From Pseudoscleropodium purum (taxonomy: Eukaryota; Streptophyta; Bryopsida; Hypnales; Brachytheciaceae), in contig OZ017805.1 in NCBI GenBank assembly GCA_963969395.1, positions 7,378,001 to 7,442,000 on the forward strand: a stretch of 64,000 nucleotides of DNA, given 5' to 3'. Position numbers and translations under genes: made by a program. Positions 1 to 54,484 of this stretch are shown here, piece after piece (position 1 is the first letter of the stretch; each line of letters starts with the position of its first letter). The notes under the pieces are model-generated. The model was not told the origin of the DNA. It ran no database searches and saw nothing but the letters and a program-made list of their open reading frames with translations.

Positions 1-455
1 AACAAATAACCATGATAATATATTCATAATTGTATTCTTCATTATGATATTACAACTTTAAATAAATGCTGATAAAAGTCCAAAATTGCAATTCATTTTT
101 AATTTGATTCAAGTTGAATTTCTGGCCAATAGATGAACATTAAATATTACAGATATGTTCATTCCAAATTATTATCCATTAGGATATTACAAATTTTATT
201 AAGTATAGATGAAATTCTGAAATTAAAATTCAACTTTAACTCGATTCGAATTGAATGTCTAGCCAAATGATGAACAATAAATTTTACAAATATATTCATT
301 CTAAAGTATTATTCATTTGGATATTACAACTTTTAATACATGCTGATGAAAGACCTAAATTGAAAATCAACTTTAACTCCATTCAAGTTGAATGTCTCCA
401 TAGAAGATGAGTAGTAAATTTTTTTGATGTATTTGTTTGAAATTGTCACCCAAGT
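1..455. repeat. Tandem repeat, 137-bp unit, cut by the left window edge
   Basis: About 3.3 copies of a 137-bp unit. The anchor GATATTACAA recurs at 46, 183 and 320, and a second anchor (GATTCAAG or a variant) at 106, 243 and 380, both exactly 137 bp apart. Each unit contains a near-palindrome around TCGATTCGAATTGA. The array starts before base 1, so its true size is unknown. No coding content is seen. Confidence 0.9.
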
Positions 456-2364
456 AAAAAAAACGGGAGAAAGCATGTTAACTTGAATTGAGTTGACACT
501 AATGAATAAGATGAATATTGTTTTGATCTGCATGGGTACATTTTAACTCGATACGAGTTGAATTCCAATATCAAGCTCTCATTTATACCAAAAAAACAAA
601 AAAACTCGATGGAATCATTGGCATTAGTCATAATTGTTTTCGTGAAATTGAACCAACATTAATGACTGTAGGATTCAATATACAACAATTACAACTAAAA
701 GATTAAGATGCTTTGCATACATTACACAATTAATATGCACTACATATATCTCTACTACACTAAAAATATTGTGCTCCAAAACATTCAAAGATGTCTACAA
801 GGCATAGAAAGCAACTTCACTTTCAAAACAAACATAACAAAGTATGACTCAATGCAAATGGGAATATGTATCTGTCCAACAATTACCTTCACTAATTAAC
901 TGCAATGTATTAAGAAGAATAGATGACACTACGCTCAAGTGATATAGCTTCCTCACGCACAATTGTAAAGACCACAATAGCCAAACGCAAATAGAGAGAA
1001 CAAAAATGAACAAGAGAAAATGGAGACACAAACTTTGCCTGAGAGGAGACAATGTGCCTCAAAAATGCGGGATAAGTTTAGTAGGAAGAAATTTCAACCA
1101 ATTCAAATGGCCTCTATCACAAATTCTAAGGTACTTTGCGACAGAAATGTCTTCTTTTAATGAAAATCCACGTAATCATTAATGCTATGGAATTTAGACC
1201 TCTGAAAAGTGGCCACATCCCTTGTTCAAGAGACTATTTTCCTACATAATGGCTATGATAAACATTGATTAATAAAATTTAGGAATATCTCATTCTACTT
1301 TATTCAATTTGGAATTCCTAAACTATTTTTGGTACTTTCACAACTTTCTAGGATTTTATGAGGACAATGTTGCTTTTTCCAATTTCAGGTCCTCTAGAAT
1401 AATGACAAACATTGTTAGCAACTTTCATGAAAGCGTCCGCATAAGACTGCCCTAATTTAAAAGCATCCCAAGACTAAATTTGCTCCCATGATTCATAATA
1501 GAGGTCTAGGGTATTTGATAAACAATAAAGTTTTAGGGTACAAGTAGGGTGTAGGGTTAGGAATTAGGGCTTAGAATACAAGGTTTTTTGAGTTCTTTAC
1601 GATTTAGGAATTACTGTTCTAGTATTCTATAATTTAAATGGAATGGAATGGAATGGAATGAAAAGTAATTTATTTTAATCTAAACATTAAATTTCAAAAT
1701 AGACACCCTTTCACTCAAAATTTTTTATGTTACTTGAAAGGATGCTTTAAGGAAAACTTATTTGGTAGTAAAATACAAAGAGAAGCATGAGTTTAATTTT
1801 CCCATGACTTTTAAATTTGCTATAACTTACTTTTTCTTAAGGCACCTCATAATTTTTGTGCTTTAGGATGTGTGAAGTACCCTAAACCATAGGTCATTTT
1901 GAATGAAAGTTGGTTTTTGTATGAAAATCAAAAATAGGAGTATGAACTTCATTTGCACATGTCTTTGAAATGTTAAAATTATTTGAAACTTAAACATATA
2001 CATATATATTAATTTATGATTTTTTCAATTCAAAACCCCAAATCCAAAATTTTAAAACTACATTCATAATATTATTTTATAAATTCTGATTTTGGTCACC
2101 TATTTTTTGTAGGAATGATATAAACTTCACGAACTAGAATGATTGCAAGAAGAATAGAAGGCCCATGATGAATATTTGTTTTTCAAGTGATGTTAGAATT
2201 CAACACTTTTTTTTTTATAGAATCAAAAATTGAAATTGTTTCTAAGAAAACTTGGAGAGATATATTTTTTATTTTATTTTTTGACACACTTTTTTTCTTG
2301 CACTCAATTGGGTTTAGAAAATGAGAATGATTGGAAGAGGAGAAAATAGGATATTAATAGTACC
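456..2364. other. AT-rich stretch without a supportable gene
   Basis: The short ORFs here (for example around 708-1052) have no recognisable motifs and lie on both strands at chance lengths. A short (GGAAT)n microsatellite lies at about 1639-1661. Around 1510-1570 there are scattered TAGGGTT-like words that are too irregular to call telomeric. Confidence 0.6.
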
Positions 2365-3060
2365 GCTGATGACTTTTGAAGGTAAAAGTTGCTGTGTAGA
2401 AAAAAATGTTTAAAAGTTGCCTAAATCTAGTTTTCTCATGAATTCTAAATATTCATGTACTTTGCAACTTTTACATATTTTTTTCTCCATGTTTGAATTC
2501 ATCCCATAGCTTTTGGGCTTTTTTATCTTTAAAGTATAGCACATGACTTTTGAAGGTAAAATTTGTTGTGGAGAAAAATGTTTATAGATAATCTGAATTT
2601 AGTTTTCTCATGAATTGCAGATATTCATGTACTTAGCAATTTTTACATATTTTTTTTCTTCCATTTTTGAATTCATCCCATGGCTTTTGGTCTCTTTTAT
2701 CTTTAAAATACAGTACATGACTTTTGAAGGTAACAACTGTTGTGCGAAGAAAAATGTTTAAAAGCAATGTGAATTTAGTTTTCTCATGAATTTTAAAACT
2801 AGCACATGACTTTTGAAGGTAAAATTTGTTGTGGAGAAAAATGTTTATAGATAGTCTGAATTTAGTTTTCTCATGAATTGTAGATGTTTATGTATTTTGC
2901 AACTTTTACGTATTTTTTTCCTTCCATTTTTTGAATTTATTCTACGGTTTTTGGGCTTCAATATCTTTAAAGTATAGTACATGACTTATGAAGGTAAAAG
3001 TTGTTGTGTATAGGAAAATGCCTAAAAGTAGAGTGCATTTTAAAAAAATGTTGAAAGTGT
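2365..3060. repeat. Satellite-like tandem repeat, about 175-bp unit (array 1)
   Basis: The phrase GACTTTTGAAGG recurs at 2371, 2544, 2719 and 2808, with a variant at 2983. The phrase TAGTTTTCTCATGAATT recurs at 2428, 2600, 2776 and 2863. Spacing is 172-176 bp with one half-length unit of about 88 bp. The same family forms a second array near 42.2-42.9 kb and a single copy near 56.2 kb. Non-coding. Confidence 0.85.
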
Positions 3061-3712
3061 GAGTTCATTTACGAATCATAAACACATTAAGTTCATGCTA
3101 ATTTTTCTTAATCATTATAGAGTCCAAGTTTTGTAAACCTTGCATTGTATTATAAGTGCATGAAATGCCACAAATCATGAAGAAAGAATCAAGTGGTGTG
3201 GAAATAAAAGAAATGAAGTTTTAAGACTTTAAGCATTCAAAGAGACGACCATAATGATTGATGCCAATCATGAAAAATTATTGCATGGAGGCACATTTTG
3301 CTTACTTTGTACATTCATGAATGCCACATATGAAGAAAAATGATTGCATGGTGGTACACTTTGATTACCTTGTGTGTTCATGAATGCCACTTATGAGTGC
3401 GAATGACTACTTAGGGTGATTAATTATTTTGAATGATCGACATTCAAAGACTCTATATGTCAGCTAAGTATGGATTTGGACCAGCTATTGGCTTTGAAAA
3501 TTCACAATATTTTTCAATTCAAGGCATAATTTCACATCAAAAATTCAAATTCCCTTGATTTCTATCTTCTTATTTTGTACAAAATTTAAATACCTTATAC
3601 TAGAATAACATGTGTGCAAATTGCTTAAGTGATCAGCAAAGTGTAGTTGAATCATACATTGAATATTGATAAAAGGGTCTAGATTCAAACACCAACATTT
3701 TGAATCTCATCC
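3061..3712. repeat. Non-coding stretch with a 63-bp tandem repeat
   Basis: Within 3245-3410 there are about 2.5 copies of a 63-bp unit: ATTGCATGG at 3280 and 3343, and CATGAATGCCAC at about 3316 and 3379. The rest is AT-rich and shows no gene. Confidence 0.7.
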
Positions 3713-3841
3713 TAAACAGTGCTCCTCCTGATGCCCATACTCTTGGCAATTCTGGCACGGAAGCGTACGAGGAGCACCCTGCCCTGGTCCCCTGTTAGGA
3801 CACGAGTTGGCATAATGTCCCGGTTCTCCACAGCTGTCGCA
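3713..3841 (-). pseudogene. Gag nucleocapsid fragment with two CCHC zinc knuckles
   Basis: Read on the minus strand, this piece encodes two complete CX2CX4HX4C zinc knuckles about 17 residues apart: CDSCGEPGHYANSC, then CQNCQEYGHQEEHC. This is the nucleic-acid-binding part of a retrotransposon Gag polyprotein. The frame stops shortly after the second knuckle, and no protease, reverse transcriptase or integrase follows. The first Cys and Asp codons fall inside the terminal seven bases of LTR unit A, so the fragment abuts that unit directly and lies antisense to its gene. It is either an older element hit by unit A or the edge of a rearrangement. The family is certain from the motif; the parent element is unknown. 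Confidence 0.8.
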
Positions 3842-4107
3842 ACTTAGAATTTTGATTTTCTTAGTATACACCCAAATAGGAACGGAAACTAGTAATTAGC
3901 TAACCGGATCCGATTAGGTGGGGAAGGAAAACTCAGAATTAGCACGGAACGTGAAGTAGTGGGCTTCTTGGATCTAATCCGGTCAGGAGTAACTAACGAC
4001 GGAAACGGAATGTAACACGGATTAGGTCTAGGACCGGATGATGATGATGAACCGGATTATGATGGTAAACCGGATTCATGATGACAAACCGGAAAGGGTC
4101 CAGGGAC

Positions 4108-4114
4108 TATAAAA
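4108..4114 (+). promoter_or_regulatory. TATA box upstream of the LTR-resident ORF
   Basis: TATAAAA lies 190 bp before the ATG at 4298, in a promoter-like setting. It is retained as TATATAAGG in unit B (near 12160, minus strand), even though B has lost the ORF. A transcript starting about 30 bp downstream would have a leader of roughly 160 nt. Confidence 0.6.
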
Positions 4115-4297
4115 GGAGGAGCTTTCACTGTTGCACCCCCTTTTAGAAACTCGACCTTGAGCGTGCGCGGTTGAGTTTTTGTCGTTTGTGCGTCTGTGCG
4201 TTTGCGTTCTGTTCATTTTGATTCCGGTTGAGATCGGAGAGAGGAAGTGAGGAACGGGACGTGCGGCTAGGAGAGAGTGAGGTAGATGTGAGTGGGA

Positions 4298-5956
4298 ATG
4301 CCTCAGCTACGTAGGTCGAGACAAGCGAGTCCCTCTGGAGGCGAGGTAAAGCTCCGGAAAGTCATTCCGGTTATTCCCTCCACAGAGCCGGAAAAGGCTG
4401 AACTCATGGATGATCTCAAATCCATGGGTTGCGTAGGGTTTGTCGAGAAACCTTGGGGTTTTAGGGAGGAGAGAATGGTCAAGGAGCTCCTCGGAAAGTT
4501 GTCCAACCAGTTTGACAACACCGTGAGGGGAGCTCCCGTCAGCTGGAACGAGGGGATGTGGAGAGCGGTTTACGGTTTCCGGGCAGGAGGTTTGGGAATG
4601 GCGAGCCGGAAGGATGAGTTTGTCCGAGGGAAGTTCAAGGGAGCCGTCAACCCGAAGGACGGATACGCGGTCGAGGATTGCTTGGATGACCGACACCGTC
4701 GGCTCCTGCAATTCCTGGTTCCGGTTCTTCACCCGGAAAAGCCAACCAGGGTGACGATCACCCTCGGCAACACCATTTTCGGTGCCCTCAGTGGTACCCG
4801 GAAAGTGGATTGGGCACGGATCATTTCCGATCTCGTGGCCCAGCTTGTTAGTAGGGTTGGGAAGAAAAGGGCCACTCTAGTGTGCCCTTACCTCTTCCAC
4901 CTCTATCGGGAGAACCAAGTCCTCACCGATACGGAGGAGAGGGCGTGGAAGACGCAGGAAGTGCTCCTGAAGTATGGGGAGTCGGAGACGGATGACGAGG
5001 CGGAATCCGATTCCGGGTCAGACCGGGAGTCCAGCGAGGAAGAGGAGGAGCTGATGCCGCCGATCAAGCGACAGAAGCTGACGCCTCCACACAAGCGCGG
5101 GACGCCTCCCGGTCAAGACAAACCGGCCCCGGAGGAGAAACCGGAAGCCGAGAAGACCAATTCCGGGGGAGATCCGGATATGCAAGATCCGTTCAACGGT
5201 CTGATCAACGTCCTCTACAACATCAGGGCGGATTGGGAGGTGAAGCACAGGACGCTTGCGGCAATCGGCAAGTTGGTGGGTGCTGCACCGGACAGCAACT
5301 TGGCGGAACAAGTGGCGCAATGCATCACGAATCCGGAAGAGACCCGGAAGCAAGAAGCCGAGATCCGCCGGTTGCAGGAGGAGGTAGATAAACTGAAGGC
5401 AATACTTTTTGCCTATCAGGAAGACGTGACGGCCGCTAGGGAGATGGCGGAGGAGACTCGGAAGATAGCCGAGCAGATCAAGGCGGTCCTGGGAGAGACC
5501 GGAACGGCAGCGGCCAAGGCGAAGCTCTTCGACGAGAAGATCCACGAAGAGAAGAAACTATCCGGTTCCCGGATGGTCCGGATTCTCGCGGATTTCGCCG
5601 AGCAGGTGGAGACGGCAATGGTGGAGGGGCGGAAGGCAGCGGACCGGATCGAGGAGAGCAGCCGGAAGCTGACGGGAGCGACGTGCGACAAAGGTATTCA
5701 CCTTTCGGACATCTCACTACCGGACCTCTTTCCGGATGCAACTATGGCGAAGGACAGGAAGGATTGGACTCCTGAGTCCAAGAAGTCCGTACGGACTGCG
5801 ACTCCGGGCACGAGACCGGATATCACCATCGACCTGGAGTCTCCACCCGGACCGAATCCTGCGGAGGGGGAACGGGTCCGGAATTTGAGTGAAGTTTTCG
5901 AGGATCTAGTCCCGGAGACCGGAAGCCCGACGATAGGATCTAGAGTTGTAGGGTAG
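4298..5956 (+). CDS. LTR-resident protein, 552 aa, acidic/NLS/coiled-coil, function unknown
   Basis: The only long intact ORF in the window. The in-frame GTG at 4292 is not a credible plant start, so the ATG at 4298 is preferred. Layout by residue: a globular N-terminal domain at about 30-215, with a KPWGF segment near 50, NQ...VRGAPVSW near 75, NTIFGAL near 157 and PYLFHLYR near 200; an acidic Asp/Ser/Glu tract at about 232-252; a basic, NLS-like PPIKRQK...PPHKR segment at about 254-266; a Pro/Glu-rich linker; a predicted coiled coil at about 346-400; and a conserved GSRMVRIL block near 425. The same landmarks appear in three decayed family-2 copies, so this is a repeat-borne gene. The N-terminal pattern loosely recalls the putative plant transposon protein family, but I do not recognise a catalytic site. 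High GC and many CCGG sites contrast with the AT-rich surroundings. Nuclear location is inferred, function is not. Confidence 0.85.
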   Translation: MPQLRRSRQASPSGGEVKLRKVIPVIPSTEPEKAELMDDLKSMGCVGFVEKPWGFREERMVKELLGKLSNQFDNTVRGAPVSWNEGMWRAVYGFRAGGLGMASRKDEFVRGKFKGAVNPKDGYAVEDCLDDRHRRLLQFLVPVLHPEKPTRVTITLGNTIFGALSGTRKVDWARIISDLVAQLVSRVGKKRATLVCPYLFHLYRENQVLTDTEERAWKTQEVLLKYGESETDDEAESDSGSDRESSEEEEELMPPIKRQKLTPPHKRGTPPGQDKPAPEEKPEAEKTNSGGDPDMQDPFNGLINVLYNIRADWEVKHRTLAAIGKLVGAAPDSNLAEQVAQCITNPEETRKQEAEIRRLQEEVDKLKAILFAYQEDVTAAREMAEETRKIAEQIKAVLGETGTAAAKAKLFDEKIHEEKKLSGSRMVRILADFAEQVETAMVEGRKAADRIEESSRKLTGATCDKGIHLSDISLPDLFPDATMAKDRKDWTPESKKSVRTATPGTRPDITIDLESPPGPNPAEGERVRNLSEVFEDLVPETGSPTIGSRVVG

Positions 5957-6107
5957 ATAGGATTTTAATTTCAGTTAGGAGTAGGAGCGGATCCGGATCC
6001 GGATCCGGCTCAACAGTATTAGGTTAGACCGGAAGTTAGATTTAGGTGGCGGCGGACCCCCACGGGTTTTCCGCTCCTTTTTGTGCTTTTAGGGTTTTGA
6101 CCCTTTG

Positions 6108-6116
6108 TATATAAAT
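6108..6116 (+). promoter_or_regulatory. Second TATA box in LTR unit A
   Basis: TATATAAAT lies 152 bp past the ORF stop and is conserved exactly in unit B (about 11792-11800 on the minus strand). If this is a true LTR, it could be the promoter for the element's own genomic transcript. The ORF would then lie in U3 under its separate upstream TATA box. Inference from position and conservation. Confidence 0.45.
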
Positions 6117-7138
6117 CGGTTCCTGCGATGGGAATTGGGAGTTGTTCATTTTGCAAACTTCTTGTACCTTTCTATTCTCTTCGTTGTGTATCTCTCTCCA
6201 GCGCGACAGGATTGTATGATGTGGAGTTAGGATAGTACGAGTTAGTTTGTAAGTGATTTCTCCCCTCGGTGTTTATTTTCCGATCCTAGGTGCATGTGAG
6301 TAGGTACCGAAGAGTTGGGAGTGAACTTAGTTCCTCAGCACGTCTAGAGTTTGAGATTCCGGGTGAGAAAGCCGTTGTTAGGCTAGGCGGGTAGGGAGGG
6401 ATTCCTTAGCTGCGCTAGAACTCCCGGGTGCGAAATCCGGTTGAGTGTCCGATCTCCTGTGAGGTCTCACCACCCGTATGGGTAACGGAAGAACTTTAGT
6501 TGATGTTGGAACGGACGGGTGCACTTGTAACCACCTGTCTTCGCACGGATCGGAAGTAGCATCAAGGTCGTTGTAGTACGAGAGGGTCGAGTGTGGGGTC
6601 TTTGTGTGACCTACGACCCGGATTGCTATCTGGGTTGTTGTGAAGGACCAAACCGGATCCGGATTAGCTTAGGAGTCTAGAAGGTAGGACAGTGGCTCTT
6701 CAGCCACTATAAGTCACGGAAGGAGTGGTGGGCCTACCACTCTCAAAATTAAGCGGCGACCCCTCTGATGGTGAAACAGAGGCAAAACCAAACCGGATAG
6801 GATTACGGGTACAGGATGACCATTCCGACCGGATTGGTCAAGACGGATTTCCAGGATCGGAAGTTGTGAGATCTTGGGATTTGGGTATTTGTACGGACCG
6901 GATAGTTAGTAGGACCGGAAGAAGGAGTAATCCGGTCTATAGTTATCCGGTGTGGTCGTATTTCTGGTTCTAGATCTAGGACCGGAAAGTAAGATTGGGA
7001 TACTGACTGAGCTTAACTGCTTAATAGAGCTAGATACTTCACAGGATCTCGTGGGTTCGATCTTTAGAGTCACTTAGTTATACTCTAGAGCGATTTTTGT
7101 GAGTATAATGGGGAATTGACCTGCCCTGTGCTGCGACA

Positions 7139-7305: not shown

Positions 7306-10300
7306 TCTCGTACGCGCAATCTAGGTGTAAATATCTTTACACACCAAAACGTAGTAAGATGACACAAACTATCGTCCCAGGGGATTCTAGGATGTTGTTA
7401 CAAACTATGGTATTAAGATTTCTTCTATTTACAACCCGTCTATTTCCTTTCTCTTCTTCCTATTCTGATTACTTTTTGAAATCTAATTCGGATCCGTCCT
7501 CACCCGGTTATTGGTTTCGTATCTTCAATTCATTGGATTTCTATTCCTCCGTTTTACCATCAGAGGGTCTGCCATTGATCCTTAAAGGGGTAGGGACTAT
7601 ACCACTCAAGTCTCTCTCTTTCTCTCTTTATCTCTCTAATCTTACTGAAACAAACAAACACCCAAGCAACTCATTAGGTTGTAGTAGAAAAAAATAGTTG
7701 ACATCCTTACAACTTTTTGAATGGCCAATCTGGCAATCAGGTCACTTAGGATTACTTCCAATTCCTTCTACTACAATGATAGATCAAAGACACTCAAAAT
7801 CAACAGAGGGTAGTTTTCCTAGCAATTACACAGATTTTAAGGTTGGCAGACCTTCCGATGAGTGTGGATTTCCAATAGCGGTCGCTAATCTCCGCACGAA
7901 ATTGTATCGAATTCCAAATCTACTCTCACATCAGTCTTTGGCTTAGTCAAATTACCATTCTAGTAGTTCAAAAGCACCACACACAAGTCCTTATTTACAA
8001 ATCCAACCCTATCACAAATACACTCTCTCAATTTGACCATGTGACAAAAGATCCGAATTCCTCCTCACCCGTCCTTTTTACACCTCAGCACTCAAATGAA
8101 CAAACTGACAACATCTTTGTACAAAGTTAGAGCCAAAATGTCCACTTGATGGCTTAAATTTCAAAAAAGAATGAAATACAATTGAATAAGCACTAGGATG
8201 GAATGAGAGGGCAACACACCTGTCCATCCTTAAAACCAAAATCAACACCAAAAAGCCAAAAGGTGCCCCCAAATCTAGGTCAATCCCACAGCTACCCACC
8301 TTCATGAAATCTGGAAAAGCAAAGGCTAGTTAACCCGAGAAATCTGGAACTCCGGCCCATGTACAGAAAACCTGTTCTAGAATCTAAAAATAAAAATCTT
8401 AACTTACTAAAGGTAACCTGCTAGCTACTTGCCCCTACGTGCCTTCTTCAAGCTGCTCTACCTTTGACTCCTTGGTGTCTTCGCAGAAGCCTTTACTAGA
8501 GTAGTCTTAGCTGCCACCCGGGTCTAAATCTTATATTGGACAGGTGGAGGCAACTCTTCTTACTTTGTTTCCGTCTCGGTTTTAGTCTTCAACTTTTCTT
8601 CATCGGTATCCTTGATTTCTTCAATCTTTGGCTTTTTCGCTTAAAACAAGTCACTTGGCTCTATCTCTGTGCGGTCCCGTTTGAGTGACGTATGTTGTAT
8701 ATGCGAGAAATCTTCCAGATGAAATTGGGTTGGATTTGCCAAGGCACTAATTTGGTCATTGAGGTTGTTGTAGACGTTCAATCTGGGTGTCTTGAACTTT
8801 CCAGTCATAACTTGCCCAGGTGGCGAAAGAGTTAGGATGGGGACTTCTTACTCTATTAGGGCAGACTTCCTACTTGGCTCCTTCTTAGGCTTGAGTGTTG
8901 CTTGCTTTGCTAATGGGGTCCATGCTTGACTTATTGAAGACCCTGTAGATGCCAAATGGAGTCAAAATAGACTTCAGTCCTTCCAGTTGTGGCTGAACTG
9001 AAACACTAAAATTCTGTCGGATCGAAGGCTATGTGACTGAAGTATTTTAGAACATGTTATCGAGGACTTTCGGAAATTCTAATAAGTCTATGGCCCTATC
9101 TAGATTCAAGTGTCCTAGCAATTTGTGCATCTCCTTCAAGATAACGCTCCTTCAAGCTTCAAAGTCAACCATGATCGTCACTACCTTTGATCCGGTTATA
9201 TGGCCTTCCTTTTTCAACCAGATGTTGTAAAGGTTAGATCTAATCACAATATGCTTCGATGACTCTATCATTGCCTTTAGGTTGTGGATGAGTTGGAAAG
9301 CATTTGTTTCTCATTGCCTTGTCGTGTTCAGCTCTCTTTCTATCCAATCTAACTGGGATTGGAAGTCATCCCGTTCCTTCTCCAAGTTCCAGATCTACTC
9401 CTCCTTCCCACATAATTCTTTTGTATGCGACTGTCATTGGATCTCATCCACAATCTTGTCCAGATCCACCTTCAGTTTGCCTCAAATGCTGAGTAGGAGT
9501 TCTCCCTCTCCAAATTCAGACTAATCCTCCTCCACTTCATCTATGAGGCCATAATCCATAATCTTGACTCTGATGTTGTATTGTATAGTCTCCTGACCGC
9601 TCAAGACCTCCTTGTGGTGGTAGAAGTGGAACACATATGGGTTGATAGGGCTTTGTTTTCTCCTCAACACATGATTAGCCAATTTTGACACAACGCTTGC
9701 AATCACTCTTCCCCAATGCACAATCTGATCTTCCAACGCTCCAAAAATGGTATTAGTTACTATGACCATAATCCGGGTAGGCTATTCTAGATACAAGATT
9801 GAAATCAAAAACTCCAGCAACTATCTATGCCTCTTATTCCTACATTCATTGATGGCCTAACCCTCCTTTGCATTAGCTAGACTTCGGAACTTTCCGTACT
9901 TATCCAATTGGAAAACTAATTTGGATCCACTCTTTTTAAACAAGTACACATCTACCCAAATATCCTTCGTCTAAGTTACGGGTCGACCTCTCACTATCAA
10001 CTTGTATTGATTCGAAATCCCATAGACAAGGTCCTAAATCATCTCCTTGTTCTTGATGTTCCACGGCTTTTGCAAAAGCTTGACACACCCAATACACATT
10101 AGATCCTCCTCCAATTGCTTTTGGAATTCTAGATTGAAAGGAATGACAGTACAAACCATTCAAGCCATAACTACTAGTTTATGAGAAGGCAGATTGCTGA
10201 CCTCCACCATGAAGCACTAACACCAAAAAACCTAATTCGGTACAAATGGCACTGACCTTCCTTTCTCTCTCTAGTATGATTGCTAACTCACCACTCTTTC

Positions 10301-10678
10301 ACTCAACTAAACAAACATGGAGTTCAACAAATGGAAAAGGAGAAGAGTAGGGTGGTGGTGGGCTTAAGTACCTAATGAGTGGCCGACAGTTCCTAGTGGA
10401 GAACAGATAGGAGATTGTTCCTATAATGGTGTTCTAGTTTCCTAGACTAAAACCTTAGGTCATAGGTTCTCTAAATCCGGACTTTTCCGAATTTTGGATC
10501 CGTCTTAAATCTAGTAACATGACATCTATAATAATTCTAGCAATCTAGAAACTGACTATTCTAAAAATAGTCCTAATGGAGCTGAAATCCCTATGGGTTG
10601 TTTAAAAATAAAAATTTTAAATCTATCTAACCCTATTCTAGCCTAATTCTATTTGATTTAAATTTCCGTACTCCCACA
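7306..10678 (-). mobile_element. Family-2 LTR-like unit, full length, with decayed ORF
   Basis: A 3373-bp unit read on the minus strand. It begins TGTGGGAG (at 10678) and ends ...GCGCGTACGAGA at 7306, which aligns base for base with the end ...ACGCATACAACA of the copy at 50514-54479. The expected terminal CA has become GA. The flanking bases AACCC (7301-7305) and AATCC (10679-10683) form a TSD with one mismatch. The interior has the same order as unit A: leader, ORF, then a 3' region with a segment shared by all family-2 copies near 7550-7600. It sits between units A and B. Confidence 0.8.
8410..10210 (-). pseudogene. Decayed copy of the LTR-resident gene (family 2, copy at 7-10 kb)
   Basis: Starts at an ATG on the minus strand (complement of 10208-10210) and is broken by several stops and frame changes. 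Matches to the intact protein at 4298-5956 include KPW near the start, NQY...VRGRPV, NTIFGAL followed by HWGRVI, and PYVFHFY. The C-terminal part down to about 8410 is recognisable mainly by position. Several stops replace likely Trp or Gln codons. Not functional as read. Confidence 0.75.
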
Positions 10679-10771
10679 AATCCTAGTGACTAATCTGATT
10701 GTCACATTTTCTTGCCCAAGTTGTATTGAAGCTTGAGTGTTCCATTGGAGAGTGCATTTGGTGAGTGCTAC

Positions 10772-12417
10772 TGTCGCAGCACAGGGCAGGTCAATTCCCC
10801 ATTATACTCACAAAAATCACTCTAGAGTATAACTAAGTGACTCTAAAGATCGAACCCACGAGATCCTGTGAAGTATCTAGCTCTATTAAGCAGTTAAGCT
10901 CAGTTAGTATCCCAATCTTACTTTCCGGTCCTAGATCTAGAACCAGAAATACCACCACACCGGATAACTATAGACCGGATTACTCCTTCCGATCCTACTA
11001 ACTATCCGGTCTGTACAAATATCCAAATCCCAGGATCTTACAACTTCCGGTCCTGGAAATCCGTCCTAACCAATCCAGTCCGGATGGTCATCATGTATCC
11101 GTAATCCTATCCGGTTTGGTTTTGCCTCTGTTTCACCATCAGAGGGGTCGCCGCTTAATTTTGAGAGTGGTAGGCCCACCACTCCTTCCGTGACTTATAG
11201 TGGCTGAAGACCCACTGTCCTACTTCCTAAACTCCTAAGCTAATCCGGATCCGGTTTGGTCCTTCACAACAACCCAGATAGCAATCCGGGTTGTAGGTCA
11301 CACAAAGACCCCACACTCGACCCTCTCATACTACAACGACCTTGATGCTACTTCCGATCCGTGCGAAGACAGGTGGTTACAAGTGTACCCGTCCGTTCCA
11401 ACATCAACTAAAGTTCTTCCGTTTACCAACTAAGGCGGTAAGACCTCACAGGAGATCGGACACTCGACCGGATTTCCCACCCGGGAGTTCTAGCGCAGCT
11501 AAGGAATCCCTCCCTATTTGCCTAGCCAACAACGGCTTTCTCACCCGGAATCTCAAACTCTAGATGTGCTGAGGAACTACGTTCACTCCCAACTCTTAGA
11601 TACCTACTCACATGCACCTAGGATCGGAAAAGAAACACCAAGGGGAGAAATCACTCGCAAACCGGCTCGTACTATCCTAACTCCACATCATACAACCATG
11701 TCGCGCTGGAAAGAGACACACAATGAGAAGAAGAGAAAGGTACAAGACATTTGCAAAATGAAGACTCCCAGTTCCCATCGCAGGAACCGATTTATATACA
11801 AAGGGTAAAAACCCTAAAAGCACAAAAAGGAGCGGAAAACCCGTGGGGGTCCGCCGCCACCCTAATCTAACTTCCGGTCTGACCTAATACTGTTGAGCCG
11901 GATCCGGATCCGGATCCGCTCCTACTCCTAACTCAAATCAAAATCCTATCTACTCTACAACCCTAGATCCTACTGTCGGGCTTCTGCTCTGCGGATCCAG
12001 TTGCTCGAAGACTTCACTCAAGTTCCGGTTCCGTTCCCCACATTCTCTCTTCGATCTCAACCGGAATCAAAGCTTGAAGCACACAAACGCAAAAACTCAA
12101 CCGCGCGCGCTCAAGGTCGAGTTTCTAAAAGGGGGTGCAACAGTGAAGGCTCCTCCTTATATAGTCTCTGGACCCTTTCCGGTTTGGTCGTCTTGAATCC
12201 GGTTCACCTATAATCCGGTCCTAGACCTAATCCGTGTGGCATTCCGTTTCCGTCGATAGTTACTCCTGACCGGATTAGATCCAAGAGGCCCACTACTTCA
12301 TGTTCTGAGCTAATTTTGAGTTTTCCTTCTCCACTTGATCGGATCCGGTTCCCTAATGGCTAGTTTCCGTTCCTATTTTGGTGCATGCTAAGAAAATCAA
12401 AATTTTAAGCTGCGACA
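10772..12417 (-). mobile_element. Family-1 LTR-like unit B, ORF deleted, with perfect TSD
   Basis: A 1646-bp unit with the same TGTCGCA...TGCGACA ends as unit A, in opposite orientation. It is flanked by GCTAC on both sides (10767-10771 and 12418-12422), a perfect 5-bp TSD. It aligns with unit A along its whole length except for one large gap: unit A bases about 4259-5876, essentially the whole ORF, are missing, leaving only the last 25 or so codons. In unit A the gap is bordered by GGAACGGG at 4251-4258 and 5869-5876. Both TATA boxes are retained. This resembles a solo LTR or a non-autonomous derivative. Confidence 0.85.
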
Positions 12418-12422
12418 GCTAC

Positions 12423-38600: not shown

Positions 38601-39860
38601 ATGGTTGCATTGAAATTTGCTAAAGTTAGTTGTATACCATGTATATTGACAAAGCCATTGCTTTCTACACAGACAAGTTTTGGGCATTCAAGAATATCTT
38701 GAAGTGTTTATATAGTCAAATCCATATGAAATGGCTTTCCAACTTAAACAACAAGTCAACGTAGTTGGTATTTGTAGCAAATGGTGACAAAATTTGGATG
38801 CAACATGATGGTTAACTTGTTGATCATGAAATTCTTGCCTCCCTTGTGTCTGTTGTGAAGACATAGTGCACAAGTTTGATTATACCTTTTCCAAACAGTG
38901 TATGATTGTATATTGTGACTTTCAATTCATCTTGATTATTCAGTTAGATTACTTAGTCATATTAAATCTTGCAGCAAGAAAGCCCAAATGCTTTTGTGGC
39001 ATTGTTGTGAGGCCAGTATGGTTGTAACTTTTGTTTTGGAGACCTTCAAATGCCTCAATTCATGCATACTCAATTATGTTCAATTCAAAAGTTTTCGACT
39101 TTAAATTCCCAATTTTTCTTCACTACAACGATTATTTTGCTTGAGGGGAATTCAAGGAAGGTAGAATACTAGTATGAACTTCTACTTAGGATATTATATT
39201 TTTGATTGATTTGGTGTTATTTGAGGTTTATGAAGATTACATATGCTTGTTATAGAGGACTCACGAAGTCTTGTATCATTGTGTTGTAGAGGCAGCTAGG
39301 TAACTCTTGTGAGAGCTTGAATCTTGTTTCTTGCCTATATTGTGATGGACGCACTTGGTGTAATCTACCCACATTTTTAGTTGCAAAATGAAGCAGAAGA
39401 GACTTTCCTGAAACACCTAGCTACTTTCATATTGTACTACTACAAGCCAAAGCTAATCAAAGTAGATAGGGTAAAATGTTTAGTTCCACTAGTCTTGAAT
39501 TGCTACAAACTAGAGACTAAGCAAGGCCTATTTAAACTAGCTATGATCAACAATTCAAAGAAGCATATAGAACCCCCCTTCGACCTAAACTCCTTGATCT
39601 GTTTATAGCATTAACTTCACTTATGCATTGGTCTTAGAGTAAAGGCCTTTCCTGAATTTTATAAGTTAGCTAAAATTGCTATAGTTTAAGTGTTGGGGTC
39701 TATAGAGGATAAGAGATGTTTCAACTCTCTTACCTTCTTGAAAAAAAAGTTCTAAATTCTACATTTAGAATGTGTGGTTGGAAAGTATTTGCCGAAGATA
39801 TTTACTTTTGAAATTTTTTTTGTATGATGAAGCTTATAATAGATGGATAGTAGTGACAGA
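35619..39860 (+). pseudogene. hAT-type transposase (ZNF862-like) relic
   Basis: Ordered pieces of a hAT-superfamily transposase on the plus strand. A zinc-finger-like N-terminal block near 36280-36460 reads HLLKCTMCDIPKK...KWDILTKDKGRRKVV. The catalytic-core region at about 36770-37270 includes VALMCDEVTLMDNGSW, then CFGANGISTFQGTKIGV and GVHCMAHKCNL. A helical region follows at 38481-38702 (GMTTLMPLLEVVDLLVTFIQ). The C-terminal dimerisation part lies at about 39640-39800 (FPEFYKLAKIAIV-VLGSIEDKRCFNSLTFLKKK). Numerous stops and frameshifts, mostly TAG/TAA, disable it. An upstream segment (35620-36240) supplies a charged N-terminus. The 37400-38470 gap is intron-like or inserted DNA. Family evidence is good; exact borders are not known. 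Confidence 0.7.
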
Positions 39861-39869
39861 TCATCCTAA

Positions 39870-41659
39870 GTCAATAGCCTGTTCCAGATCCAGGTATTCC
39901 AACAACTTGCGCATGTTCTTCAAAACAATCCCCATTTGGGCTTCGAAGTCGACTAGGATCTTTACCATCCTTGTTCCAGTCATGTGTCCTTCCTTCTCCA
40001 ACTAGGTAGTGTAGAAGTCAGCTCGGATCACCATATCCTCCAGAACCATGATGAGTTCTTTGAGGTTGTAGATGAGTTGAAGAGCTTCCATCTCTTTCTC
40101 TCTCGCAGCGTTCAACTCTCCCTTCGTCCACTCGAGTTGGAACTTAAGGCTATCCTTTTCTTCCTCCAACTTCTGGATTTGTTCTTTCTTCTGTCGAAAC
40201 TCTTCCGGATTTGGACATTTCTGGATCTCTTTCAAAATTTGGTCCAACTCCACCTTGAGTTCGCTCGCAATAAGGAGCATGTAATCCTCCAAGTCACTAT
40301 ACACTTGTTTGACTTGTTACATCCACTAGATTCCGGCTTCAAAGAACTCTAGCTCTTGAAGATGTTCCAGATTTGGAATCGGTTCCTCTCGTTCTCATGT
40401 TAGTGCCGTCCCTCGTGAAGTCAGATTTGTAGACTTCCTTTGTCTCTGGTCCACAACTTTTTCTTCTTCTTCCGGTTGCTCTTCTTATTTGGATTCCTTC
40501 TCTTCTTTCTCCAACTCATCTGTAAGGCCTTACTTCACAATCTCAATTCCGGTGTTGTATTTAATCGGGTCCTCTACATTCAAGACCTCCTTCTAGCGAT
40601 AGAGGTGGAAAAAATATGGGGTAATAGGGCTATGTTTCACATAGCCCACGTGCTTTGCCAATTTGTCCACTACTCCTTGAATCACTCTCCCCCAATGGAC
40701 AATCCGGTCCTTGAAAGCTCGAAATATGGTATTAGGTTCTGTGACCATAACCCGGGTAGGTTTTTCTAGATACAAGATCAGAATTAGAAAATTCAGTACC
40801 CATCTATGCCTCTTGTTCATACAATCACTAATGGCAAAACCCTCCTTTGAGTGGGCCTAACTTTGGAACTTTCCGACTACATACTTATCCACTCTTCTAG
40901 CTAATCCAAGTCCATTCTTTTTAAACAAATAAACATTTGCCCAAATGTCTTCCGTCCAAGCTACAGATTGACCTCTCACTATCAACTCGTACTGATTCGG
41001 AACTCCATAAATGAGTTTCTGAATCATCTCCTCCTCATTCTTCATGCTCCACAACCTGTCTAACAATACGATACACCTGATACACATGAGGTCCTCCTCT
41101 AACTGCGTTCAGTGAACTGGATCGGAAGGGATAACCGAACAAACCATCCAGGCTACAACCCCAGATTTTTGTGTAGTTGGATCGGCAACTACTGCCATGA
41201 ATCACCGACAATTGATAACCTGTTCTGATACTGATCTTTCTGTTCTCTTCCTATCTTAGTCACTAACTCATCACTCTTTCTCTCAACTATACATTCACAA
41301 AGTTCAACAAGTAGAGAGGGAGACAAAGACAGGTGAAGGAGGGTTCAAGTACTTGACGCGCGGCCAATAGTCCCCGGTGGAGAACAGGTAGAAGATCATT
41401 TCCCTAACAGTCTTCTAGTTTCCTAGACTAGAAGTCTAAAACGTAGGTTTTAGAAATCTGGTACTTTTTGAGATCTTGGATCCATATCGAATATGTTTCC
41501 ATAACATTACTAATAATTTTAGCAATTTGGAAACTTATTATTTCTATCATAGTTGTAGTGTAGCAAAAATCTCTAGGGATTTCAAAATAAATAAATTTGC
41601 AAGTCTATCTAACCTAATTCTAGACTAATTTATCTGGTTTGAGTTTTCGTGCTCCCACA
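39870..41659 (-). mobile_element. Family-2 LTR-like unit, 3'-truncated
   Basis: The minus-strand start TGTGGGAG lies at 41659, and the sequence follows the other family-2 copies through leader and ORF to about 39870, where homology stops against the end of the hAT relic. The 3' third of the unit, with its terminal CA, is missing, so no TSD can be read. Confidence 0.75.
39880..41198 (-). pseudogene. Decayed copy of the LTR-resident gene (family 2, copy at 40-41 kb)
   Basis: Starts at ATG (complement of 41196-41198). Recognisable blocks compared with the intact protein at 4298-5956: NQYELIVRGQSVAW, GLARRVDKYVVGKF, RHRWVLNFL, EKPTRVMV, NTIFRAFKDRIVHWGRVI, PYFFHLYR, and a coiled-coil stretch (KKEQIQKLEEEKDSLKFQLE). 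Only a few stops and frameshifts separate them, making this the best-preserved family-2 copy, but the C-terminus is truncated. Confidence 0.75.
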
Positions 41660-42169
41660 TTAATAAATCCACCTACTCGCACTAAACAATGGTTTTAGTA
41701 TTATTGGCATACCAACACAAAGCTAAGGGATTAACTCAACACCATGAAGTAGAAATTTGTGAATCAACTTGCTAAATGAAGGAAAAACAAGAGAAGGAAA
41801 ATGCCCGGGGCATTAATCTAACTTCAGCCTTTAAATAACTAACTCTCCAAGAAACCCTAAAAGCCCTAAAGGAAGAAACAAGGACTAGAGAATGACACGT
41901 CACATTCTCTATTCCGAATACGCGTTGACTTCCTACTACATGGCTAATTTTGCTAAAGGTGGATCTCAGATGCGAGAAATCTGGATCCCAGAAGTCCAAG
42001 TTTACCACTATTAAAACCAACTAGCAAGTAGCTTTCTTAGTAAAGAACTTTGGTTTTCATCCACCTACCTACTTTTGCTCCTAAAATAACTACAGTTAAG
42101 CCTTCTTTAACCATTTTAGAGTTTACATGACTTCTTGGAAAGAATGCAAGTTCTTTGCATAGGAAATTG
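41660..42169. other. No supportable gene
   Basis: AT-rich; an 82-codon antisense ORF (41772-42020) has no motif. Confidence 0.5.
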
Positions 42170-44221: not shown

Positions 44222-47200
44222 ATGAATTCTATTACAAATCCAGACATTGACATGGACTCATCAAGCAATGAGCTTGAGGTTCTCCAACAAATGAATGTTG
44301 GTATTCCTGATTATGAAGGAATTCCTCGTCGAATGTGGAATACAAAATGTATTAAGCTATATAACAGTTAGGGAGTACTTGTTAGTGAAGGTACTTGCTA
44401 CAACGTGAGTTCCGATTTTGTTCTTGGTGCTAGTGCGCGTTTCGGTGACACTCATGTATTGTGCACATTTCAATGTCACATTCTCAAGTAGACCTTCCTA
44501 AAGAATGTGTTTACTCATTGGTACCTTGGCCTATTCAATTGGTTCACTACCATGGAGCTAGTCTACATGATCATGAAGCTAGGGACAATTCCAACCATCT
44601 ATAAGCAATACTTCTAAGTCCACCTTCTGTGACATCTGTAAAACCATATGCAAGTGCCATCAAAAACCTGCCTCGTGAGATCGTTGCAAAAATGAAGTAC
44701 CTCTTGACATATGAGTCAATTAACTTGGTATCCAGCAAAGTGTGTTGCAGTAAGAATTGTGTCCAGCCGTTTTCTAGGGACAAAATTCGAGCTTTCCAAA
44801 AACGCATGTATTGGAATTCAACCTTCAAGCGTAGAGCCTTCATAAAGACTGATGTGCACAAACATCTTCATGAAGGTGCACGTCAAAAAAACATGGTGAC
44901 AATTGAAGATGTTATATGAACAGTCTAGGCACAAATATCCTTACAACACACGAATGTGGTAAAATGACTCAAAATATCCTCTCAAAGGATTCTAGGATGT
45001 TGTTGTCAAATATGGAATCCAGATTTCCTCTTTTTCCAATCCGTCTACTCTCTTTCTCTTTTTCCGGTTCCAATTACATTTCGGAATCTAATCTAGATCT
45101 GTCCTCACCTAGATTTCGGTTATGTCTTTTCAAGTTATTGGTTTTCTATTCCTTTGTTTTACCATTAGAGGGGCCAGTATTGGTCTTTAGAGGGGTAGGG
45201 ACTTTACCACTCTTTCACTCAACTATACACATACAAAGTTTTGTAAATAGAGAAGGAGAAAAATGGAGTGGTGGTGTGCTTAAGTACCCGACGAGTGGTT
45301 GATAGTTCTTGAAGGAGAACGGATAGGAGACCATTCCCATCACAATATCCTAGTTTCCTTAGACCGGAAATCTAGGTTATAGGTTCCCTTCATTTGGAAC
45401 TTTTTCGGATTCCGGATCCATCTTGAATCCGGTGACATGACATCTATAACAGTTCTAGCAATTCAGAAACTAACTATTCTAAGAATAACCCTAATTGAAT
45501 CGGATTCTCTATGTTTTATCCAAAAATTGAAAATTTTGAGTCTATTCTAATCTTATTTTAATCTATTTCTATCTATTTTGAGTTTTTGTATTTTTACAGA
45601 AAAGATAAATGTGTATTTGTGTGCATGGATGCTAATTGTGAGGGTTGCTGAGTCCACATTCTATTACTACTTGAAATACATGAAGGATGATTGGGAAGAA
45701 AGGGATCATGATAATACATGATTGCTGAAGCCTAGAGAATATACTCAACAAGCCACTACTTCGTTGAAGTGCATCCTAGACAAGGAAGCCAATCACATGC
45801 TACATTCTACTCAGACTTTGAAGGCCGGCGAGAAGGTTGTGTCCAAGATTCTTTCGGCCTCATTTCAATGGAAGGACTAGTTAAAGAAACTCAATGACAC
45901 TAATGCGGCTTTTGGTTTGAAGGAAATTTCAACTTCAAGCTTGAGTAAGATAAGGTCCACAAAGTTTTTAGAGTTTGACGTGAAGAAGCTACGAGATAAT
46001 TTTGCTTAGTGAAGTACTTGTGACAAATATAATGAGCTCATCAAGGGTGCTATTGGTGGATCCTAAACTGCTATGAAGTGGTTGAGGAGGTTGAATAAGC
46101 ACCTAGTCATTACTTGCGCCCATAAGGAAGTGTATTATATAAACTAAAATTTGTCATTTAATTCTTTGCATGAATGTATTGCAATCACACACGACAAGAT
46201 GGATCATGCAAAAAACGTTTGTCCGGTCTTTTTTCACAAGAATAAAGAACTTGATGGCCTCATGAAGCTACCCATTTCTATAACAGGTATGATTGTGTAT
46301 AGTCATGCAAATGTACGCTATGTGCATTATGGCTTGGATGTCTTCTCCCATGACTCCAACTATACCATTGGTTCAATGGCAAAGTTGTTGCAAGATTTAG
46401 AGTTAGTACCGAAGTCTTCTTCTTGAGAGTTGTTTACAAATTCAAAGTCCTTGAATTTGTTAGTAGGTGTAGATATGTGCAATGCATTGTTACCACCACT
46501 ACCAAATACCTTAATTCCTGCCAAGCAACTACCACCCATTCTTAACGTGCAAATAGGTAATGCCATTGGAGACAATAAGAATAGATTTGTTTTCTGTTTT
46601 TGGTCTCTACTTGTTGCAAATAAGATTTTTCAGGAAGTCTATGTGAACTTCAAGATTGTAGGTCATATCCATGATGACATTGATGTAGTGTTTGGAAGAT
46701 GGAGCATGGATTTGAAGAAGGAGAACTTCATGATAGTACTAGCGCTAATGAAGTCGTTCAAGGATGTGGATTCCGTCTCCACAATCCCTCACCTTATTGA
46801 AGAAGTGCCCAATTTCAAGGGTTTTATAGTAGGGTCATTTGTAGATGGTGACGACATCTTCGTCGGGCATGCAAGACTATAACAATTTGAAGTTCTACCT
46901 AGATTCAATAGGGTGCCTTGTCGTGAAGTACAAACTTTTTTGCATTGATGCTGACTGGTTAGAGGAAGACAAAAGAGGCATTAAGTTGTAGAAAGAAGAT
47001 TGTGAAAGAAAATGTTTGTGGCCATGTAGTGAACCATTGCCTGTTTCATTAAAGCCTATGAAAGGCTTGGAAGACATTGTCAAAGGTGTGTTAGGATTTA
47101 TGAAGTATTGGGACAATTTATGCAATGTAGATGTCATTGGGGATTATCAAAGATGTTACAAGCATTTGGTGAAGTATTGGCATGGCATCAAGGTAGCATT

Positions 47201-50513: not shown

Positions 50514-50719
50514 TGTGGGAGCATGGAAACTCAAACCGGATGGAATTAGTCTAAAATAATGTTAGGTAGACTTACAATTTTTTATTTATTTTGGTAACTC
50601 ATCTAGATTTTTGCTACACCAAGACTATGGTAGAAATAGTTAGTTTCTAGATTGCTAGAATCGTTACTAGTGTTATGGAAATAGATTTGATATAGGATCC
50701 GGGAAAGTACCAAATTCCT

Positions 50720-51020
50720 CAGGGTTGACAAGACGGTCGGACGTCCGGACGTGGGCGTTGTGTCCGCAGCGTCCGCCTGTCCCCTCATCCGCCCGTCCGC
50801 CCCGTCCGCCTCGATACCCATCCGCCCCGGTACAGCCGTCCGCCCGGTTACGGCCGTTTGATCGACACGCGGACTGATGTGGTCCGCATGATCTGGGTGT
50901 CCGCCCCGCCCGTCCGCCTTCCGACGGCAGGAGGGACACTACATCCGCTGGCGTCCATGAGGATGGACGTCCGGGTTACGGACGCTATTTTGGGGTGGAC
51001 GTACTGATTTGTCAACCCTG
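50720..51020. mobile_element. GC-rich hAT-type MITE nested in a family-2 LTR unit
   Basis: A 301-bp insertion with perfect 12-bp terminal inverted repeats, CAGGGTTGACAA (50720-50731) and TTGTCAACCCTG (51009-51020). It is flanked by 8-bp repeats AAATTCCT (50712-50719) and GAATTTCT (51021-51028), two mismatches apart. CAGGG ends plus an 8-bp duplication are typical of hAT transposons. The three other family-2 copies that cover this site lack the insert. The interior is strongly GC-rich, built from GTCCGCC/GGACG words, unlike anything around it. ORFs inside it are compositional artefacts. Confidence 0.85.
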
Positions 51021-51291
51021 GAATTTCTAAAACCTATGTTCTAAACTTTTGGTCTGGAAAACTAGGGTATTGTTAGGGGAATGGTCTTCTACTTGTTCTC
51101 CATCGGAAATTGTTGGCCACGCATTGGGTACTTAAACCCATCGTCACTTCTCATTTTCTTCCTTTCTGTTGGTTGAACCTTGTGAATCATATAGCTGAGA
51201 GAAAGAGTGGTGAATTAGCGACCGGGATAGAGAGAGGATGAAAAGGTCGGTGCCAAATGCACCGGATTAGGTTGTTGGCTATCGGTGATTC

Positions 51292-53367
51292 ATGGCAACG
51301 GCTTGCAATCCGATTGTGTGAAAGTCTAGGGTTGTAGTCTAGATAATTTGTCTGGTTATTCCTTCTGATCCAACCCACCGAGTGCAATTAGAAAAAAACC
51401 TCATGTGTATCGAGTATATTGGATTGTTAGATAGGTCATGGAGTATGAAGAACAAGGAGATGATCTAGGAACTCATTTATAAAGTTCCAAACTAGTACGA
51501 GATGACAGTGAGAAGTCGACTTGTAGCTTGGACGGAAGACATCTGGACAGATGTCTATTTGTTTAAAAAAAAAACCAGACTTGGACTAGCCGGAAGAGCA
51601 GATAAATACGTAGCCGGAAAGTTCCAAAGTCAGGCCCACTCAAAGGAGGATTTAGCTATTAGTGACTGCAAAAACGAGAGGCATAGACGGGTATTGGACT
51701 TCCTCATTCCGATCTTGTATTCGAAAAAGCCTACCCAGGTACAATCATGGTCACTAACACCATTTTCGAGGCTTTAGAAGACCGAATTGTCTATCAAGGG
51801 AGAGTGATTTAGGGAGTAGTGGGCAAACTTGTAGATCAGGTGGGCCAAGCAAAACATAGCCCTATCACCCTGTATCGGTTCCACTTCTATCACCACAAAG
51901 AGGTCTTGAGTGCCAAGGAAATGATTTAGTACAACATTGGAGTCGAGATCGTGAAGTACGGCCTGATGGATGAGTTGGAGAAAGAGGAGAAAAAATTTGA
52001 AGAAGAAAGGCAACCAGAAGAAGAAGAAGAAGAAGAAACGATGGACCAAAAACAAAAGAAGTCCACGGATCCAGCAGCACAAGAGAAGACGCCAACACCG
52101 GATAGAGAAGAGTTGATTCTAGATCTGGAACATCCTCAAGATTTGAACTTCTTTGAAGCTCAAATCTAGTGGATGCAGTAGGCCAAACAGATGTTTGGTG
52201 ACTTAGAGGATCACGTGCTCTTTATCGAGGGCGAACTCAAGGTGGAGTCGGACAAGACTTTGGAGGAAATCCGGAAACACCAAAATCTAAAAGAATTTCG
52301 ACAAAAAGAAGAACAAATCTGAAAGTTGGAGGAGGAAAGGGACAGCCTCAAGTTCCAACTAGAGTGGACAAAAGGGGAGCTGAATACAATCAAATGGAAA
52401 GAGACAAAGGTTCTTTGACTCGTCTACAACTTCAAAGAACTTATCATGGTTCCGAAACATACGGTGATCCGAGTTAACTTCTACACCACTTGGTTGGAGA
52501 AGGAAAGGCACATAATTGGATCGAGGATGGTAAAGATCCTGGTCAACTTCAAAGCGTGGATGGGGATTGTTTTGAAGGATATGTGCAAGTTGTTGGAATA
52601 CCTGGATTCGGAACGGGCCATTAACTTAGAAGGATTTCTGGAAGTCCCTAAGAACATATTTCAGAATACTCTGGTTCAATGCTACAGTTGCTCTGCAGTG
52701 AAACGTACTCGATTTACTTTCTAGGGCGAAATCCTGTAGAGCATCATAGCATGTCAGGAAACAAGCATACTAGACTCTGATCCGATAGGCTTCTAGTGGT
52801 CCAATTCAGCCACAATTGGAAGGGCTAAAGTCTATCCTCACTTGAGCAGTAGGATTATCAAGTAGTTAAGTGCGGACTCTAGTAGGACCAACGATACTTG
52901 AGCTGGAGAAAGAGGCAAGTGAGAAGTCTGTTCTAATAGAGCTAGGAATTTTTGTCCCAATTCTTCCACCACTTGGAAAAATCATGGCCAAAAAGTTTAT
53001 AGTACCCAGATTGTCTATTCGCAATAACCTCGACGCACGAATTGGAGCGATGATGAATCTAGCCCGATCTCATCTACAAGATTTCTCACATATGCAGTAG
53101 TCCACACCAAAGTAGGATCATGCTTAGATTTTACTGAGTGAGTTGCCTTAAGCCAAAGATTCGGAGATTAAGGAGATCCAGGAGTCAAAAGAGGAGGTGT
53201 TGACGTCCGGATCTGAGGAAGAAACGGAATCAGAAGACTCACCTCTAGAAGTTCTATGTAAGCCTCAAACTCGATCATCAGCGAAAAATACACTGGTGAA
53301 GGCTTTGGTAAAGACTCTAGGCAGTCAAAGTGGGAGGAGCTCGAAGAAGGCACGGCGGGATAGATAG
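51292..53367 (+). pseudogene. Decayed copy of the LTR-resident gene (family 2, copy at 51-53 kb)
   Basis: Begins MATACNPIV at 51292 and ends near 53367. Blocks shared with the intact protein at 4298-5956 and the other copies: VRSRLVAWTEDIWTDVYLFK, GLAGRADKYVAGKFQS, RHRRVLDFLIPILY, then, after a frameshift, NTIFEAL, HFYHHKEVL, an acidic Glu-rich tract (near 51975-52040), a coiled-coil region (52230-52420) and IGSRMVKILVNF near 52515. Several TAG/TAA stops. It keeps the full domain order of the family (globular, acidic, coiled coil, GSRMV block) and a longer C-terminus. Confidence 0.75.
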
Positions 53368-54484
53368 ATAGTTGGTAGGTAATTGGGTAGAATTTTCATT
53401 TTGGAACGGGATTTCCAAGTGTAGGCTTGGGTTTCGGATTTTTAGAGGTTCCAAAATTGTAGTGACAGTTGGGTCATGAACTTTTTGGATATCCCGGACT
53501 GTTCTCTAGTTGGTTGCCTTGATTTCCGAGTTGCCTTTCTAGCTTTTTAGGCATTGACTTCGGTTTTGGTTTTGGTTTTTAAAGGCGGACAAGTTTGTTA
53601 CCTTCTCATTCTATCCTAGCAATTATTCTATTGTATTTCATTCCCTTCTTTAATTTGAGCCATCTAATGGACACTCTGGCTTCGACTTTGTATCCCGATT
53701 GTTTTAGTTTGTTGCTTAGAGTGTTGAGATGTGAGAAGGACGAGTAAGGAGGAATCCGAATTTTGGATAATTGGATCGGATTGAGGGAGTATTATTGTTA
53801 TGATGTTAGAATCGTGACAAAGGAGTTGTATGTAGTGCCTTTGAACTACTGGAACGGTAATCCGATTTTTAGTAAAGAGTGGTATGAGTGCAGATTCGAA
53901 ATTGGAAACAATTTTGTGCGGAGATTAGCAACTGTCACAAGAAAGTCCCACTCATCGGAAGGTCTACTGACCTTAGAGTCCATCTTATATCTAGAAAGAT
54001 TACCCTTTTATTAACTCCTAATGCTTGAGATCTGTTGTTTTAGTAAGGAGTGAACGAAGCCCTGAGTGACTTGCATTCCGGATCTGCCATCTAGGATGTT
54101 GTGAGGATCCGAATCTTCTTTCCATGCTACAACACCTTGATTACTTGGGTGTTTGTTTGTTTTTGCCTGTGTACTAAGTAGATTAGAGTGGTGAAGTCCC
54201 TACCCCTCGAAAGGTCAATAGCGGACCCTCTGATGGTAAAACAGAAGAATTGAAAACTAGTGTATTGAAAGAGATAACTACAAATCTGGTAAAGCCAGAT
54301 CCGGATAATAGTTGGTTTTAGAAAAAGAGCAGAAGAGAGTAGTTGGAAGAAGAGGAAAAAATGATCAACCTAATACTGAAGTTTGGGAGAAAGTCTAGAA
54401 TTCTCTGGAACGATAATCCGTGTCATTTTACCATACTTTCGTATTTAAAGATACTTATGCTTAGATTACGCATACAACATATAA

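Follow-up and report, generated by a model that had tools for sequence, protein, structure and literature searches.

A selected gene within the giant long terminal repeat of a moss Ty3/gypsy retrotransposon, and a short motif accumulated across the element that encodes it

Why would a unit that ends like a long terminal repeat (LTR) carry an intact gene? The question is raised by 64,000 nucleotides of the moss Pseudoscleropodium purum (contig OZ017805.1, positions 7,378,001 to 7,442,000; C49:7378001-7442000 in our numbering), a stretch that we call the window. On its forward strand, at 3835..7138, lies a 3.3-kb unit that is bounded by TGTCGCA...TGCGACA and contains an intact 552-codon open reading frame (ORF) as well as two TATA boxes, all of them present as the first-pass annotation had claimed. 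That annotation wavered between a giant LTR with an accessory gene and a compact mobile unit that only mimics an LTR, and suspected an undescribed element class. We found that the unit is an oversized LTR of a Ty3/gypsy retrotransposon, represented in the window by a solo-type copy, and "undescribed class" was thus too strong.

We searched the 313-Mb assembly with the 3.3-kb unit and scored 40 of 1132 candidates. The scored copies were 98-100% identical to the unit; 38 of them cover unit positions 1-3304, so that its ends recur, and two begin at position 3 or 6. Forty near-complete copies at such identity show that the unit is not a chance assembly of sequence. Twenty-one copies (L001 and L009-L028) were studied closely. 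Where sequence on either side was available (20 copies), exact 5-bp target duplications surround 14 (12 of 18 when the segmental duplicates L011 and L012 are left out); those lacking one are the window copy, flanked by ACAGC and GCTAT, and L013, L016, L025, L027 and L028.

The search for two copies of the unit around gag-pol, suggested by the first-pass annotation, yielded one element, C49:10388360-10400877. Its LTRs (10388360-10391661 and 10397574-10400877) point in one direction, have TG...CA ends, differ from each other at 28 positions and enclose 5.9 kb. Internal pieces match the Pfam families Retrotrans_gag, zf-CCHC, RVT_1, RNase H, H2C2 and rve, in the gypsy order reverse transcriptase (RT), RNase H, integrase; the protease piece has no Pfam match, and a protease-like stretch was recognized there by eye only. 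With in-frame stops in gag-pol, a 5' LTR that adjoins inverted pol and no flanking 5-bp duplication, this is a rearranged, non-intact element. Eleven bases after LTR L023 lies a primer-binding-site-like (PBS) sequence, TGGCGCCGCTGCCGGGGA, which we take to be of the tRNA-Asp type, followed by gag, and a polypurine tract (PPT), GATGAGGAAGGGGTAA, precedes the LTR at the end of pol in L013 and L016. The LTR pair around gag-pol with PBS and PPT, together with the 5-bp duplications at solo copies, thus supports the giant-LTR identity. A striking absence of pol or a second LTR beside every copy had been reported; it holds within the window, where the solo-LTR identity leads one to expect a lack of pol, and fails in the genome, given the paired element. 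Among the 40 copies, the members of a second candidate pair, 16.9 kb apart on C43, have different duplications and are separate solo LTRs.

The LTR-borne ORF (4298..5956, forward strand) is a gene with selection acting on its protein. The second-longest ATG-initiated ORF in the window has 159 codons. The 552-codon frame is open in 17 of the 21 copies, the other four being truncated at 219 or 258 codons. We compared variants in 19 copies, leaving out L011 and L012, with the expectation from the mutation spectrum of the non-coding part of the LTR. Synonymous variants numbered 83 (57.7 expected), nonsynonymous variants 72 (114.2 expected) and stops 2 (6.4 expected), with omega 0.44 and p 3.7e-7. 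Controls, for which we read the ORF bases in frames +1 and +2 and the 3' non-coding part in each of the three frames, gave no significant departure. As a separate observation, G>A (70) and C>T (45) changes make up 115 of the 157 ORF variants, which fits methylated-cytosine decay.

What kind of protein is selected? The product has a predicted domain at residues 1-228, an acidic linker with the sequence KRQK, which resembles a nuclear localization signal (NLS), a predicted coiled coil at about 300-465, and a tail. Database searches returned 157 relatives at E <= 0.001, with up to 73% identity over the full length among the 120 matches listed; an acidic, NLS-like linker recurs in most relatives examined. 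The listed relatives carry no Pfam name except PF03999, in two of them. Pfam gave only sub-threshold matches for the ORF itself (best DUF1664, E 0.037) and scattered coiled-coil families for 40 relatives (best MAP65_ASE1, 1.7e-5, in 2 members). PDB sequence searches returned no match in the N-terminal domain, and viral contigs contained neither ORF-family nor pol relatives. We consider the product probably a nuclear protein, probably dimeric, with predicted DNA binding; its N-terminal domain may have a VANC21-like fold.

The layout of the LTR suggests two promoters. TATA box 1 (TATAAAA, 4108..4114, forward strand), the presumed promoter of the ORF, lies in a 20-mer identical in 18 of 21 copies. 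TATA box 2 (TATATAAA, 6108..6115, forward strand), the presumed promoter of the genomic RNA, lies in one identical in all 21. If TATA box 2 is indeed the genomic promoter, the two boxes would place the gene in U3. Directly before TATA box 1 stands a forward-strand tandem array of 3.3 copies of an 18-bp unit, ACCGGATCATGATGATAA, that contains the motif CCGGA (4033..4093); roughly 100 bp upstream of the second box stands another, 3.5 copies of CGGATC with overlapping CCGGA/TCCGG sites (5988..6008, forward strand). Because the LTR holds its own gene, a complete element has two gene copies and a solo LTR has one.

CCGGA and its complement TCCGG, with a core of about AWCCGGAW, have accumulated across the whole element that encodes the protein. 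The non-coding LTR has 26 sites where 4.6 +- 2.2 are expected. For coding regions we used 1000 shuffles that preserve protein and codon usage, and none reached the observed number in the LTR ORF (36 sites against 17.6 +- 3.3), the gag piece (14 against 6.0 +- 2.2) or pol (48 against 14.8 +- 3.6); in the protease piece the excess was not significant (10 against 6.9; 115 of 1000 shuffles). Motif density is 12.6-18.8 per kb in the element and 0.55 per kb in 128 kb of neighbouring DNA. Among copies, CpG positions within motifs are less variable (10 of 106) than other CpGs (74 of 332; p 0.0028), an effect concentrated in non-coding DNA that bears on methylation as an indirect signal at most; motif C and G bases outside CpG show no reduced variation. 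The LTR flanks searched contained no other gypsy pol that could serve as a motif control.

A selected, probably nuclear protein and a motif spread over its element recall the VANC proteins, which counter silencing of the Arabidopsis VANDAL Mutator-like transposons, VANC21 acting through YAGTATTAY in VANDAL21, as passages of PMC5735166 and PMC10398659 describe. As far as those passages go, the likeness to VANC21 and VANC6 lies in a transposon-encoded protein and in a short motif that has built up along the element, in part as tandem arrays, to which a possible common fold of the N-terminal domain with VANC21 may be added. The VANC genes belong to VANDAL DNA transposons, whereas the present gene sits in the LTR of a gypsy element; the motif here is CCGGA rather than YAGTATTAY or AGTTGTCC, and its sites extend into coding DNA too. 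In a search of 6 proteins at E <= 10 none matched DUF1985 (PF09331), and the domain is absent among the 25 of 32 families listed for the 40 relatives (E <= 0.1); a DUF1985 search of this genome also gave no match, a result that is uninformative because control genomes gave none either.

On balance we lean slightly towards the LTR gene encoding a nuclear, probably dimeric, VANC21-like DNA-binding protein that binds WCCGGAW and counters silencing of all copies in trans. TATA box 1 would drive the gene and TATA box 2 the genomic RNA; the protein would enter the nucleus and dimerize, and the dimer would bind WCCGGAW sites near the two promoters and throughout the element body. Bound protein would then remove or block silent marks on every family copy, as VANC21 does. 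The data establish the LTR, the gene within it, the selection on its product and the accumulated motif; nuclear location, DNA binding, recognition of CCGGA and anti-silencing itself we infer. Demethylation is a feature of VANC proteins and for the LTR gene is proposed by analogy.

Could the protein instead be a passenger or an accessory factor of other function, for example gag-like or a movement factor, with the CCGGA excess an unrelated compositional or RNA-level signature? The Pfam and PDB searches give no functional annotation, and the motif has a forward bias (92 CCGGA against 55 TCCGG; in each count, 27 come from the shared TCCGGA). Yet it occurs on both strands and in coding as well as non-coding DNA, CCGGA is the top-scoring 5-mer of both the LTR ORF and pol once protein and codon usage are fixed, and its arrays stand at promoters. 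The acidic, NLS-like linker of most relatives, and the 21-31 sites retained by LTRs that have lost the ORF, also argue against a passenger, which we regard as doubtful.

We wondered whether a DNA-binding protein might rather steer integration or transcription, as a self-targeting tether or an activator, and leave silent marks alone. Arrays before both TATA boxes would suit such a role, and insertion into own copies does occur, judging by 7 of 40 places with adjoining partial LTR pieces and by copies joined to inverted gag or pol. Nesting, however, is common in repeat-rich DNA generally, 14 of the 20 flanked copies have ordinary 5-bp duplications, with a single distant 228-bp LTR piece (at L015) as the only family sequence found in those flanks, and the structural analogue acts on silencing; we consider steering improbable. 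That an ordinary host gene was caught by chance in one LTR is far less credible still: nothing beyond the lack of known viral homology speaks for it, all 21 aligned copies have the ORF at one position inside the repeat, and it also occurs in divergent, decayed relatives within the window, one of which has LTR-like ends. A DNA-transposon-like compact unit mimicking an LTR, to which the 7-bp inverted repeats at the termini and the majority of solo copies among those seen might point, is ruled out by the unit serving as both 5' and 3' LTR, with PBS and PPT, around gag-pol.

How long has the gene travelled in this way? The first-pass annotation counted three further TG-ended units with relatives of the ORF, two of them with 5-bp duplications. 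The three ORF relatives exist, all decayed (26-37% identity per aligned piece). The divergent unit at 50514..54479 (forward strand) has TG...CA ends, the exact duplication TATAA and an ORF relative at 51361-52550 (forward strand) in two frames. The others are a unit at 7310..10678 (reverse strand; outer end approximate) with a remnant at 9524-10156, and a truncated unit at 39860..41662 (reverse strand) with a remnant at 39888-41144, both remnants on the reverse strand. A script looking for exact duplications found none for these two, nor for a short divergent relative at 44921..45589 (reverse strand), which lacks the ORF and retains both unit ends with the middle lost. Decayed relatives three times in one window, once in a TG...CA unit with an exact 5-bp duplication, thus indicate that LTRs have carried the gene for a long time. 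Motif excess in the four decayed window relatives is modest (5 against 2.4 expected, 6 against 1.8, 18 against 5.6 and 5 against 0.8), and in a search for deaminated motif forms there, the excess of TTGGA and CCAAA is matched by that of the background. In the unit at 50514-54479, GCGGAC/CGGACG is in excess alongside ATCCGG and may form a different motif array.

The window also contains a solo LTR of the family that has lost the ORF (10772..12417, reverse strand), with the exact duplication GTAGC at 10767-10771 and 12418-12422. This short form, which spans 1-1646 and has one common internal deletion, accounts for 20 genomic rows, the window copy included. It is a mobile 1.65-kb subfamily, with exact duplications in 12 of 13 copies fetched. 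These LTRs moved without the gene in cis, which may reflect a product acting in trans, although other explanations are possible.

Several junctions and repeats were noted besides. A 120-bp inverted gag zinc-knuckle fragment of the family itself (3715..3834, reverse strand, 97.5% identity) adjoins the 5' end of the window LTR at a rearranged junction. Such precise joins, in which an LTR end meets gag, pol or LTR sequence of the family in inverted orientation, are seen here and in L016, L025 and L028 and resemble self-integration products. Partial LTR pieces of the family directly adjoin the copies at C44:9770843, C40:10027741, C46:90678, C49:7320383, C1:2453759, C42:15276343 and C44:16192657, and some resemble LTR-in-LTR nesting. 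On C49, the inverted arms L010/L011 (5124565-5153632) and L009/L012 (12647062-12672303), 99.97% and 99.7% identical over about 9.9 kb and 15-19 kb apart, are palindromes or assembly duplicates. A tandem array of diverged copies at 96-bp spacing occupies 62302-62877 of the window.

In its PBS, its gag-RT-RNase H-integrase order, its PPT and its 5-bp duplications the element resembles plant-type Ty3/gypsy elements; the 3.3-kb LTR with a selected 552-codon gene sets it apart from the usual ones. Solo LTRs are normally dead relics. The nearest parallel for the position of the gene is mouse mammary tumour virus (MMTV), whose sag lies in U3 of an LTR with two promoters in use, according to a passage of PMC9412291. 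There, too, the gene has its own upstream LTR promoter (P2 in MMTV, presumably TATA box 1 here). MMTV is a mouse retrovirus and Sag a superantigen, whereas the present protein looks nuclear from its sequence. In another LTR retrotransposon an accessory ORF is suspected of a part in silencing; the passage describing it does not place the ORF in the LTR, and the protein type differs from the present one. Apart from MMTV, passages of the open-licence literature searched mention no LTR retrotransposon whose LTR contains a gene, and they mention VANC-like proteins only from VANDAL or Mutator-like elements.

Tentatively, and with slightly less than even confidence, we suggest that this is the first sequence-specific anti-silencing system encoded by an LTR retrotransposon, in which solo LTRs persist as independent sources of a VANC-like factor that acts in trans, and LTRs lacking the ORF spread as its beneficiaries and keep only the motif-rich promoter parts. 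If so, motif-guided anti-silencing, which the passages searched report only from Mutator-like DNA transposons, would extend to LTR retrotransposons. A reason for the gene to reside in the LTR would be that even a solo LTR continues to serve the family, and CCGGA sites together with the protein might be used to lift silencing at chosen loci. How a single protein relates to a single motif across hundreds of copies is open to direct testing.
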